Shown: positions 6,852 to 34,333 of the stretch, piece after piece
How the letters are laid out: every line of letters begins with the position of its first letter
How positions within the stretch are numbered: position 1 is the first letter of the stretch
Assembly (NCBI GenBank): GCA_905182235.1
Contig: CAJJAM010000034.1
Span: forward strand, 1 to 35,944
Length of the DNA stretch: 35,944 nucleotides
Direction of reading: 5' to 3'
Source of the DNA: SAR86 cluster bacterium SAR86B
Lineage (GTDB): Bacteria; Pseudomonadota; Gammaproteobacteria; Magnimaribacterales; Magnimaribacteraceae
Notes under the pieces: generated by a model
The model's database searches: none
Seen by the model: only the letters and a program-made list of their open reading frames with translations
What the model was told of the DNA's origin: nothing
Position numbers and translations under genes: made by a program

Positions 6852-7307
6852 TTATTCTTCTACAGTAGCTTCGATGGTAATTGAAATCGATTGAACAACT
6901 TCAGGGTGAAGCTCTATGTCTATTCTAAAGTCTCCAACTTCTTTCAAGGCACCTTCAGGAAGTCTTACAGAACTCTTCTCAACTTCCAGTCCTTGCTCAA
7001 TTATTGCATCTGAAATCTCTCTTGTCCCTATAGATCCATAGAGCGTTCCTTCTTCAGACACCGGAACAACAAGTTTTATTTTTATACCCTCTAATTGAGT
7101 GGCCAATTTCAAGGCAATTTCTTTTCTATCTGATTCTGCAGATAAAAGGGCTGCTTTTCTTGCTTCGTATTCTGCTTTATTATTTTCATCGGCCCTAATA
7201 GCCTTACCTGAAGGAATTAAAAAATTTCTGCCATAGCCAGACTTAACATTAACTAGATCTCCTGGCTCTCCTAATTTTGAAACTTGTTGTAATAATATTA
7301 ATTCCAT
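6852..7307 (-). CDS. rplI: 50S ribosomal protein L9
   Basis: 151 residues (E. coli L9 has 149). The N-terminal rRNA-binding domain is clear: MELILLQQVSKLGEPGDLVNV followed by GYGRNFLIPSGKA. A long charged connecting helix (about 40-75) leads to the C-terminal domain with LYGSIGTREI. L9 binds 23S rRNA near the L1 stalk and affects frame maintenance. It lies 5 bases downstream of rpsR and is co-transcribed with rpsF and rpsR in the usual order. Confidence 0.96.
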   Translation of the reverse strand: MELILLQQVSKLGEPGDLVNVKSGYGRNFLIPSGKAIRADENNKAEYEARKAALLSAESDRKEIALKLATQLEGIKIKLVVPVSEEGTLYGSIGTREISDAIIEQGLEVEKSSVRLPEGALKEVGDFRIDIELHPEVVQSISITIEATVEE

Positions 7308-7312
7308 AATTC

Positions 7313-7579
7313 TTAATGATAGTGTGAATCTGTGTAAGGTATGAGAGCTAAGTGACGTGCTCTTTTAACCGCTTTGTTTAATTGTCTTTGGTATTTAGCT
7401 GAAGTACCTGTCATTCTCGCAGGAATAATTTTACCAGTTTCAGTAATATATTCTTTCAGTAGTTTAATATCTTTAAAATCTACTTCCTTAATACCCAGGG
7501 ATGTAAATTTACAATATTTAGGGCGATTATCAAAATCCGTTCTTCTTCTTTTAAAATTTTTCTTTTGCTTTTTTGCCAT
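7313..7579 (-). CDS. rpsR: 30S ribosomal protein S18
   Basis: 88 residues. Typical S18 segments are [40 protein letters not shown] split across the central region, and [11 protein letters not shown] near the C-terminus. S18 pairs with S6 on the 30S platform and binds 16S rRNA. The basic N-terminus ([13 protein letters not shown]) makes it slightly longer than E. coli S18 (75 residues). It starts one base after the rpsF stop, so the S6 and S18 partners are translated from adjacent cistrons. Confidence 0.97.
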
Positions 7580-7580
7580 T

Positions 7581-8243
7581 TTATTTCTCTGTTTCAGATG
7601 CTTCTGGTACTACTTCTGCTTGGGCTTCTACTTCTGCTTCTGCTGTTTCTTTCTTAGCTTCTGCTTCTGGCGCTACTTCTGCTTGGGCTTCTACTTCTGC
7701 TTCTTCAGTTTCTTTTTTAGCTTCTGCTTCTGGTGCTGCTTCTGCTTCTGCTGTTTCTTTCTTAGCTTCTGCTTCTGGTGCTGCTTCTGCTATTTCTTTC
7801 TTAGCATCTGCATCAGCTGCTCTGCGAGCAGTTTCTTTCATCCTGCTCTTTTCTTTCAATGCTTTTTCTTCTTGATATTTTCTTTGTTTTTCTTCTTCGT
7901 AGCTCTCTTTTTCGCTGTCTTCTCTAGTTTGGGCTAATAAAGCTGAAGAGTCTGAATGTGCTTCTTTAGTATTAAGAACTAGATTTCTTATGACCGAATC
8001 ATTAAATTTAAAAGAATTCTTAATTTCATCAATAGCAGTCTGACCGCATTCTATATTTAAAAGTGCATAAGCTGCTTTAAATTGATCCTGTATTGGATAG
8101 GCAAGCCTTCTATTGCCTATATTTTCAGAGCGATGAACCGTGCCTCCAGAATCTGTAACTATTGATGAAAGCTTTGTTATTATCGTAGGTGCTTGATCAG
8201 ATTGATCAGGATGAACTAGAAATACTATTTCGTAATGTCGCAT
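7581..8243 (-). CDS. rpsF: 30S ribosomal protein S6 with long Ala/Glu-rich C-terminal tail
   Basis: 220 residues, whereas S6 is usually about 95-135. Residues 1-95 are a normal S6 ferredoxin-like domain ([33 protein letters not shown], and [14 protein letters not shown]). The rest is a highly charged extension: a Glu/Lys/Arg-rich segment (about 105-140), then an Ala/Glu/Lys repeat region (about 144-213) with APEAEAKKE at 155-163, 170-178 and 191-199, and AEVEAQAEV at 182-190 and 203-211. E. coli S6 also ends in a short acidic tail extended by RimK, so tail variation is known, but not at this length. The start is ATG 8243 with AAGGGG just upstream. Confidence 0.95.
7611..7814 (-). repeat. In-frame 63-bp tandem repeat encoding the S6 tail
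   Basis: The tail of rpsF is built from near-identical DNA units. Positions 7611-7640 and 7674-7703 are identical over 30 bases at a 63-bp offset, equal to 21 codons. Further degenerate copies extend to about 7814, so the region probably expands and contracts by slippage or recombination while keeping frame. Confidence 0.85.
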
Positions 8244-32390: not shown

Positions 32391-33694
32391 TCTTTCTTTT
32401 TTCTTATCTCCGCTGAAATAGCATGGGCTGTTAAACCTTCGGCCCTAGCAAGAATAGATGTGTTCTTTACAAGTTCGTCATACTCCTGAAGTTTAGAGCT
32501 CTCACCAAGGTTAATGAAACTAGAGTGAACTATAAAATCTTCAACAGATAAAGGAGAGCTGAAAACTGAAGAACCGTTAGTAGGCAGAATATGACTAGGT
32601 CCAAGAACATAATCTGACAGAGCATTAGCCGAATCTTTTCCAGAAAGAATTAACCCCGCATTAATTATACTTCTTGAATCTTTCAAGGGATTTTCAGTAA
32701 CTATATGAACATGCTCAGGAGCAATCTGATTAACAAGACTTATAGCTTGCTCAGTGTCCTCTGCCAATATAACAACCCCTCTGTTTCTTAAAGATTTTTG
32801 GATAATATTGGACCTGGAAAGTAATGGAACTTCTTTTTTAATCAAGCTCTTAACCTCATTAATCAGTTCTTGTGAAGTTGAAACCAAGATTGAAGAAGCC
32901 ATTTCATCATGCTCAGCTTGTGCCATTAAATCCCAAGATATAGTTATTGGATCAGAGAGAGAATCAGCCAGTACCGTTAATTCAGAAGGACCTGCTATTG
33001 AATCTATACCCACTTCTCCGTACAACTGTCTTTTCGCTTCAGCGACAAATTGGTTTCCTGGGCCTATAATTTTTTGTACTTTAGGTATTGATTCTGTGCC
33101 CAAGGCAAAAGCTGCAATTGCTTGAGCACCTCCTATAGAATAAACACATTCAATTCCCGCAACATAAGCTGCCGCTATTGTAAGGTCATTTATAGAACCA
33201 TGAGGAAAAGGTGTTGTAAGAAAAATCTTTTCAACACCAGCTGATATAGCAGGTCCTGCTGCCATTAGAACAGTTGAAGGGTAAGAGGCCTTCCCTCCTG
33301 GTACATACATTGCCACTCTTTCAAGAGACCTTGATCTTCTCCCAATAGGACCTTTAGAAGAATTTAGGTTAGTGCTAGAGACCTGATCTTTATGAAAATC
33401 TAATACCCTCTCAAAGGAGTAATACATAGCATCAACAATTTTTTTATCAACGCGGTTTAGGCTTGAAGCAATAACCTCTTTAGAGACCTTTAAATCATCA
33501 ATTGTTAGGACCCCTCTATAATCAAATTTATTTGTAGTGTTTATAACTGCTTGGTCTCCTTCATTTCTCACTGACTCAATAATTTGATGCACATCATCTT
33601 TTACAGAATTGTTAAGGGAATTCTTGTTTTGCAAGAAGGCGTTAAATTTTTCTTTAAAACCTCTATCTTTACTTTTTAAGCTTAATCCAAACAC
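32387..33694 (-). CDS. hisD: Histidinol dehydrogenase
   Basis: 435 residues. It oxidises L-histidinol to histidine in two NAD-dependent steps, with zinc. Signatures: ERVAMYVPGGKASYPSTVLM, SIGGAQAIAAFALGTESIP, KIIGPGNQFVAEAKRQ, IDSIAGPSELTVLAD, DLMAQAEHDEMASS and APEHVHIV. The start is GTG 33694 with AGGA 7 bases upstream. It lies 9 bases after hisG. Its stop overlaps that of degS by 4 bases, and the hisC often found downstream is absent. Confidence 0.96.
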   Translation of the reverse strand: MFGLSLKSKDRGFKEKFNAFLQNKNSLNNSVKDDVHQIIESVRNEGDQAVINTTNKFDYRGVLTIDDLKVSKEVIASSLNRVDKKIVDAMYYSFERVLDFHKDQVSSTNLNSSKGPIGRRSRSLERVAMYVPGGKASYPSTVLMAAGPAISAGVEKIFLTTPFPHGSINDLTIAAAYVAGIECVYSIGGAQAIAAFALGTESIPKVQKIIGPGNQFVAEAKRQLYGEVGIDSIAGPSELTVLADSLSDPITISWDLMAQAEHDEMASSILVSTSQELINEVKSLIKKEVPLLSRSNIIQKSLRNRGVVILAEDTEQAISLVNQIAPEHVHIVTENPLKDSRSIINAGLILSGKDSANALSDYVLGPSHILPTNGSSVFSSPLSVEDFIVHSSFINLGESSKLQEYDELVKNTSILARAEGLTAHAISAEIRKKKD

Positions 33695-33703
33695 AAATAA
33701 TTC

Positions 33704-34333
33704 CTAAGATACTAGAATTGAATGTATTTCTTTTATCAATTCATTCTTTGTTTTTAATGCAGCTTTATTGACTATCATTCTCGAAGATATGTCTCGAATT
33801 ATTTCTATTTCTTCTAAGCCATTTTCTTTTAACGTCTTACCGGAATCAACTAAATCAACAATTGCTTCGGATAGGCCTATTAACGGTGCGATTTCCTGTG
33901 AGCCATGCAGATAAACTATTTCGGCTTGGATGCCTAATGATTCAAGGTATTTTTCTGCAGTTTCCGGATATTTGGTGGCTACTTTTAATCTTTTTTTACC
34001 TTCAATCATTTCTTTTTTTCCGGCAAGAGAGATCCTACATTTTCCTATATTTAAGTCTTCTAATTCTATAAATTCTTCAGAACTTTTCTCTAAAAGAATA
34101 TCTTTCCCAACAACACCGACATGTGCTGCTCCTGAGGTAACATAAGTTGGAACATCCCAGCCCCTGATAAGCAAAACTTTAACTTCAGGCGTTGCAGTAT
34201 CTAAAAGGATCTTTCTTGTTTCCTTTGGATCGTCTAAAAGTTTAAATCTACTAGTCTGAATTAAAGGCAGGCAGTCTTCTAATACCCTTCCCTTAGGGAG
34301 AGCAACTATTAAATTATCTTGAGTTGAAATCAT
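33704..34333 (-). CDS. hisG: ATP phosphoribosyltransferase, short form (HisG-S)
   Basis: About 209 residues, the short form without the C-terminal regulatory domain of E. coli HisG (299 residues). It condenses ATP with PRPP in the first step of histidine synthesis. Motifs: LIVALPKGRVLEDCLPL, RGWDVPTYVTSGAAHVGVVGKDIL and the PRPP-binding IVDLVDSGKTLKENG. Short HisG proteins need the HisRS-like partner HisZ, which is not in this window. I use ATG 34333; a TTG immediately after the murA stop would add two residues. murA-hisG-hisD is a common gammaproteobacterial order. Confidence 0.94.
   Translation of the reverse strand: MISTQDNLIVALPKGRVLEDCLPLIQTSRFKLLDDPKETRKILLDTATPEVKVLLIRGWDVPTYVTSGAAHVGVVGKDILLEKSSEEFIELEDLNIGKCRISLAGKKEMIEGKKRLKVATKYPETAEKYLESLGIQAEIVYLHGSQEIAPLIGLSEAIVDLVDSGKTLKENGLEEIEIIRDISSRMIVNKAALKTKNELIKEIHSILVS

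Follow-up and report, generated by a model that had tools for sequence, protein, structure and literature searches.

Across bacteria, ribosomal proteins often bear terminal extensions, and the function of these is largely obscure in the parts of the literature that describe them (PMC9534751, PMC6821194). In the section of one account that counts low-complexity regions (LCRs), those of bacterial ribosomal proteins are mostly C-terminal and rich in Ala, Glu and Lys (PMC6821194). The same section lists S6 among the ribosomal proteins with at least 20 LCR-containing orthologues and also names S2. The S6 of Mycoplasma pneumoniae has a long C-terminal extension, described as a helix and a long loop, that has been partly built and seen on ribosomes in cells (PMC9534751, in its part on extensions). 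S6 of E. coli and Pseudomonas carries an acidic C-terminus with glutamates added by RimK. In Pseudomonas fluorescens, Lys at the penultimate position is reported to block RimK, in the part of that study that treats the S6 end (PMC4741518). Hybrid RimBK proteins have been described as well, and most were placed in Flavobacteriales and Rhodobacterales (PMC11957791). According to the main text of that study, in which the word SAR86 does not occur, RimB needs about six Glu and a RimBK from Desulfotalea failed to glutamylate P. fluorescens RpsF. Among the titles listed in our searches of the open-licence literature, none concerned SAR86 S6 tails, which is no proof of absence.

We identified one S6 match in the SAR86 assembly that contains the window (the whole stretch of 35,944 nucleotides that was analysed). 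This assembly comprises 1.06 Mb in 44 contigs and is 82.55% complete. The encoded protein matches the S6 models of Pfam (PF01250, residues 3-90, E 2.8e-25, 88.7 bits against a cut-off of 27) and NCBIfam (TIGR00166, residues 1-93, 92.4 bits against a cut-off of 42.9), which bears out the S6 identity given in an earlier note on this DNA. Directly after rpsF come rpsR and then rplI, a gene order that we took to mark bS6. The minus-strand block of the window reads murG, murC, ddl, rpsF, rpsR, rplI and dnaB, where two genes are what we take, from their translations, to be murC and murG. The features of the locus are as follows.

7581..8243, minus strand: rpsF, ribosomal protein bS6 (220 aa ORF; PF01250, TIGR00166)
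7968..8243, minus strand: S6 core fold, residues 1-92 (Pfam/NCBIfam match; predicted strands and helices)
7818..7967, minus strand: proximal tail, residues 93-142 (conserved; net charge 0; modelled as one unbroken helix)
7584..7817, minus strand: distal tail, residues 143-220 (acidic Ala/Glu repeats, net charge -18)
7313..7579, minus strand: rpsR, ribosomal protein S18 (PF01084; start one base past the S6 stop codon)
6852..7307, minus strand: rplI, ribosomal protein L9 (PF03948, PF01281)

Beyond the S6 fold, the window protein carries a 128-residue extension in two parts. The earlier note had reported a charged tail of about 110 residues at 7584-7930. That interval encodes residues 105-220 (116 aa), and only residues 143-220 are acidic. 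Ala and Glu make up 64% of these residues, as in low-complexity terminal extensions. The two-part structure, the distribution of tails across the order and a repetitive S2 tail in the same genome are additions to that note.

An AlphaFold2 model built from 23 sequences shows the S6 core followed by a helix at residues 101-167. In blocks of ten residues, pLDDT is 86-97 in the core (residues 1-90), 89 at 101-110, 95-98 at 111-150 and 78 at 151-160; it falls to 42-58, or low confidence, past residue 160. The input held 22 relatives, 16 of which were supplied to codon 120 only (the six others were 124-165 aa), and the helix past residue 120 thus rests largely on the window sequence. AlphaFold tends to render charged stretches as long helices. 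In a salt-bridge (single-alpha-helix) test, the proximal segment gave a marginal result (p = 0.035) and the distal segment fell short of significance (p = 0.09).

Codon comparisons separate the same two parts. The S6 of one sister species (G002) is identical to the window protein up to residue 142, a stretch in which 27 codons differ synonymously: 16 synonymous and no nonsynonymous changes in residues 1-95, and 11 and none in residues 96-142. From residue 143 to the end there are 6 synonymous changes, 19 nonsynonymous changes and 30 gap codons. The other same-genus relative (G001) shows a similar, less sharp pattern, with 31 synonymous and 12 nonsynonymous changes in residues 1-95, 14 and 9 in residues 96-142, and 3 and 15 plus 51 gaps in the remaining tail. 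When 21 non-overlapping same-genus pairs are taken together, pN/pS is 0.06 in the core, 0.17 in residues 93-122 and 0.38 in the distal tail, with regions set by the residue numbers of one member per pair and several pairs saturated at synonymous sites. All 80 gap codons in these pairs are distal. Individual pairs deviate, with distal dN lower than proximal dN: G072-G054, from genus g12 (0.042 against 0.104), and G069-G060 (0.017 against 0.058). The proximal segment is also less conserved in families f2 and f3 (mean majority 0.50 and 0.53) than in f1, the family of the window (0.72). A tail made of a conserved neutral segment and then a hypervariable acidic repeat is well supported, as the two parts separate independently by charge, by model confidence and by selection.

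The distal tail opens with a degenerate 12-residue stretch, which is followed by units of 15, 21 and 21 residues of the repeat type APEAEAKKE. Units were defined on the protein.

7737..7781, minus strand: repeat unit of 15 aa (45 bp)
7674..7736, minus strand: repeat unit of 21 aa (63 bp), also from Tandem Repeats Finder
7611..7673, minus strand: repeat unit of 21 aa (63 bp), also from Tandem Repeats Finder
7584..7610, minus strand: partial unit and C-terminus VPEASETEK (9 residues)

Tandem Repeats Finder reports a period of 63 with 2.4 copies and 91% matches at 7599-7747, in agreement with the long Ala/Glu/Lys tail and 63-bp repeat described before, and other periods (45 and 39) over the remaining tail DNA. 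The 45- and 63-bp repeats keep the reading frame. An exact copy between units, previously put at 30 bases, does exist, and the longest within the distal tail spans 40 bases. We recoded the protein 300 times with local codon usage (maximum 35 bases) and shuffled its codons 300 times (maximum 23 bases), and no such sequence reached this length. The 40-base copy thus points to duplication at the DNA level and not to protein composition alone. A search of the distal tail against the other proteins of the same genome returned only itself (E up to 1). The open frames on the plus strand opposite the tail probably just mirror the repeat and are no genes.

We identified S6 in 90 of the 101 genomes of the order. 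The window core had a tblastn match at 79 of these loci; the 11 others comprise seven loci in family f4 (frames of 95-101 aa) and four in f2 (G035, G041, G050 and G092; frames of 155-178 aa). Five of the 79 were excluded from counts, three from g12 because a contig end truncates the tail and two because of ambiguous residues, leaving 74 complete proteins. The length survey of relatives that the earlier note proposed finds tails of 44-198 residues in 63 of these. Every one of the 63 tails carries a net negative charge (-3 to -44, median -9). When only the last 30 residues are counted, this holds for 58; the five exceptions are four g12 sequences (+1 to +3) and G003 (0). The 11 tail-less proteins end at 93-96 residues and all belong to genus g10 of family f4. 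The tail is therefore dispensable in that genus.

The earlier note expected in-frame variation in repeat number among strains. Between related species, length does vary in frame: the three species seen of the window's genus (g1) encode S6 proteins of 220, 190 and 171 aa, all with the C-terminus TEK. By length, the window protein ranks first among 27 in its family and fifth among 74 in the order. Genus g13 has a constant 186 residues in the six members seen. Repeat units differ by lineage, with KEEP in two of three g4 members and EKSE/EKPE in some g6 members. The S6 tails of g12 are 137-198 residues long and consist of amphipathic helical repeats of the type EEVVEEVKE (L075, L088, L091, L059; L076, L089, L072). 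A near-invariant basic segment, AKGVFAKVKNVFKSD, ends these tails (ASGVF... in L059).

We also surveyed S6 across the class (46 sequences from 271 genomes with an S6 match, 30 of them the best-scoring and 16 chosen for long frames) and at 80 further named loci, of which L149-L151 again belong to the order under study. The 121 complete proteins among these 126 have a median length of 143 and a maximum of 244 residues, in a sample that is enriched for long frames and includes two SAR86 records. At named loci outside the order set, 68 of 74 tails are net negative and six are not. S6 tail length is thus hypervariable, and the window lies in the upper range without being unique. In three other gammaproteobacterial genomes (L128, L131, L134), S6 carries a similar C-terminal segment of about 65 residues (HELNYVLKKYGKRQT...) after an acidic linker; in the two tested, this segment had no Pfam match above cut-off.

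The window protein looks like an unusually long example of the known C-terminal low-complexity extensions of ribosomal proteins, and not like a new system. It shares with the LCR class a terminal and presumed surface location, a composition rich in Ala, Glu and Lys, and the naming of S6 and S2 (PMC6821194). The LCR-counting section of that account does not contain a two-part S6 tail, a selection profile of one, or this order. S2 of the window genome (L237, G000:C6, match 33111-33758) ends in five acidic, Ala-rich 10-residue repeats; S16 was not found in this incomplete assembly.

The S6 extension of M. pneumoniae is likewise long, C-terminal and made of a helix and a long loop. Residues 1-167 of that S6 could be resolved on the ribosome (PMC9534751, in part). 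A sequence search with the window S6 matches PDB chain 7ooc_E (215 residues, E 6.5e-4) over query residues 4-125, and the distal repeats are thus not shared. This chain presumably comes from Mycoplasma pneumoniae. The S6 of E. coli and Pseudomonas shares the core and the acidic C-terminus with the window protein, but its acidic end is short and partly post-translational, whereas the long, repetitive end of the window protein is encoded in the gene, with Ala and Lys between its acidic residues. A PDB entry for a 'fully modified isoform' of S6, which we take to be the E. coli protein, has 135 residues.

On balance, we favour a reading in which an ordinary bS6 carries a stalk and an acidic brush, both within the known class of C-terminal low-complexity extensions. 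From the structure model we infer that the conserved proximal segment may be a rigid helical stalk that leaves S6 on the 30S platform. The distal acidic repeats would form a flexible polyanionic brush kept off the ribosome surface, as is suggested by a charge sign that is kept despite changing sequence. Such a brush would act through charge and length, not sequence, and may repel other ribosomes, RNA or nucleic-acid-binding proteins, or tune factor access on that side of the 30S subunit. RNA binding by the acidic part, which the earlier note had raised, would be implausible on charge grounds. In-frame slippage or unequal recombination would generate the repeats, which would be tolerated while net negative charge is kept. 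A distal pN/pS of 0.38 points against the brush, as it indicates weak constraint only, and tail charge could also persist through mutational bias of purine-rich repeats.

The distal repeats may instead be a tolerated by-product, a possible but less probable reading that we rank close behind the charge brush. Slippage would lengthen the tail of a peripheral protein with no positive function, and selection would remove only frameshifts and hydrophobic or strongly basic versions. The distal position of all gap codons and of the highest pooled pN/pS, the DNA-level duplication and the tail-less S6 of g10 are consistent with this, as is the non-essential status of E. coli S6 reported in the LCR account (PMC6821194, in part). 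The uniformly negative charge of the 63 tails despite differing repeats argues against it, as do a pooled distal pN/pS below 1 and the constrained distal tail of the g12 pair G072-G054. A costly tail on an abundant protein would also be expected to be lost from small genomes. Least likely of all the readings is that the exact repeat copy number reflects collapse or expansion in assembly. Such tails can break assemblies, and three of the seven g12 assemblies with an S6 match stop inside the tail at a contig end. The window array, however, is shorter than 200 bp, with units that differ by point changes and an intact frame. The tail class as such is not an assembly artefact, because G001 and G002 bear their own tail versions in other assemblies.

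The earlier note had proposed that the encoded tail takes the place of RimK-added glutamates. A first RimK search (PF08443, in 61 genomes) was too broad; its weaker matches mostly resemble other ATP-grasp enzymes, and we therefore used Rimk_N (PF18030) in 101 genomes. We identified RimK in 24 of the 101 genomes, always in frames of 455-478 aa: 20 in the 35 genomes of f1, two in f2 and two in f4. The copies read are RimB-RimK fusions with the RimB-type protease part first (L032-L034; L147:2280-3647, minus strand; L148:3807-5174, plus strand). They resemble in this order of parts the described hybrid (PMC11957791, in part), but none was found in the window's own assembly. In the two RimBK proteins scanned, the RimK part exceeds the NCBIfam cut-off for S6 ligases, and the RimB domain (PF05618) scores about 100-102 bits against an NCBIfam cut-off of 200. 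One RimBK flanking gene was not found in the window assembly, in a search that, unlike the RimK searches, had no positive control; for the second, matches there reach no more than 32% identity. We take these neighbours to be DUF169-like and SDR genes, respectively. Since RimBK and a neighbour are missing together from an incomplete assembly, the absence of RimK in the window genome is uninformative, and the RimBK locus of the species was probably not assembled.

Replacement of the RimK-added tail is very unlikely. In its favour, both tails are acidic and C-terminal on S6, the window assembly yielded no RimK, and the window S6 ends in Lys (ETEK), although the published block concerns a penultimate Lys in P. 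fluorescens and is not directly transferable to a terminal one (PMC4741518, in part). Both same-genus relatives, however, encode a RimBK fusion together with a tailed S6 ending in TEK, and the window genome lacks RimBK together with at least one flanking gene. Within f1, tail length is unrelated to RimK: medians are 67 in 15 genomes with RimK and 68.5 in 12 without (Mann-Whitney p = 0.29), a comparison of the 27 of 35 genomes with a complete S6 that is indicative only, given their relatedness. C-terminal residues do not sort by RimK either (E 7, K 3, A 3, D 1 and N 1 with RimK; A 5, E 4, S 2 and K 1 without). G037 (f4, 97% complete) encodes RimBK and a tail-less S6, and G055 encodes RimBK with no S6 found.

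Only slightly better placed is a reading in which the tail serves as a platform for RimBK, with glutamates added and trimmed at its end so that repeat length would set reach and RimBK would set charge. The fusion-length frames concentrated in f1 and the S6-ligase scores of their RimK parts are consistent with this. Glu runs reach at most 3 residues in the window tail and at most 4 across the 63 tails, counted on encoded residues to which glutamates may be added after translation. The encoded runs are shorter than the stretch of about six that RimB needs, and RimB, as it has been described, would not be expected to cleave them. The terminal Lys of the window protein, the low RimB score and the inactivity of the Desulfotalea enzyme on P. 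fluorescens RpsF likewise argue against a platform, as do two tailed genomes in which RimK was not found (G007 and G008, 95 and 96% complete).

It is also doubtful, though less so than either RimK-based reading, that S6 of this order is a ribosome-borne outrigger, with a rigid helical stalk that carries an adjustable tip. For most lineages this tip would be an acidic brush, with repeat slippage tuning its length. In g12 it would consist of the 137-198 residues of amphipathic helical repeats, and the conserved basic end (AKGVFAKVKNVFKSD) would anchor ribosomes to a membrane, to the nucleoid or to a partner. The single g12 pair examined (G072-G054) shows purifying selection on the tail, with 37 synonymous and 16 nonsynonymous changes in a clearly constrained distal part. 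The salt-bridge test was not significant on three g12 tails (p = 0.86, 0.95 and 0.26). The amphipathic moment of the g12 tip exceeds the shuffle mean in each of four sequences, yet 8-9% of shuffles reach it.

The order offers a natural S6 length series, from no tail up to 198 residues, with a conserved putative stalk and a fast-changing tip, and it includes genomes with and without RimK. The question of charge versus sequence is thereby open to test by tail swap in a strain where S6 is non-essential.

The sole Rfam match at the rpsF locus is rli49, on the opposite strand and at 25.7 bits (below 40), which we treated as chance. The window has no SD-like motif before the S18 start (7579-7600). 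Among 74 relatives, 38 have such a motif, placed within the final codons of the tail or directly behind them. The S18 start was located in 60 of the 74 relatives and not in 14, and in 48 of the 60 it lies within offsets of -4 to +2 of the S6 stop.
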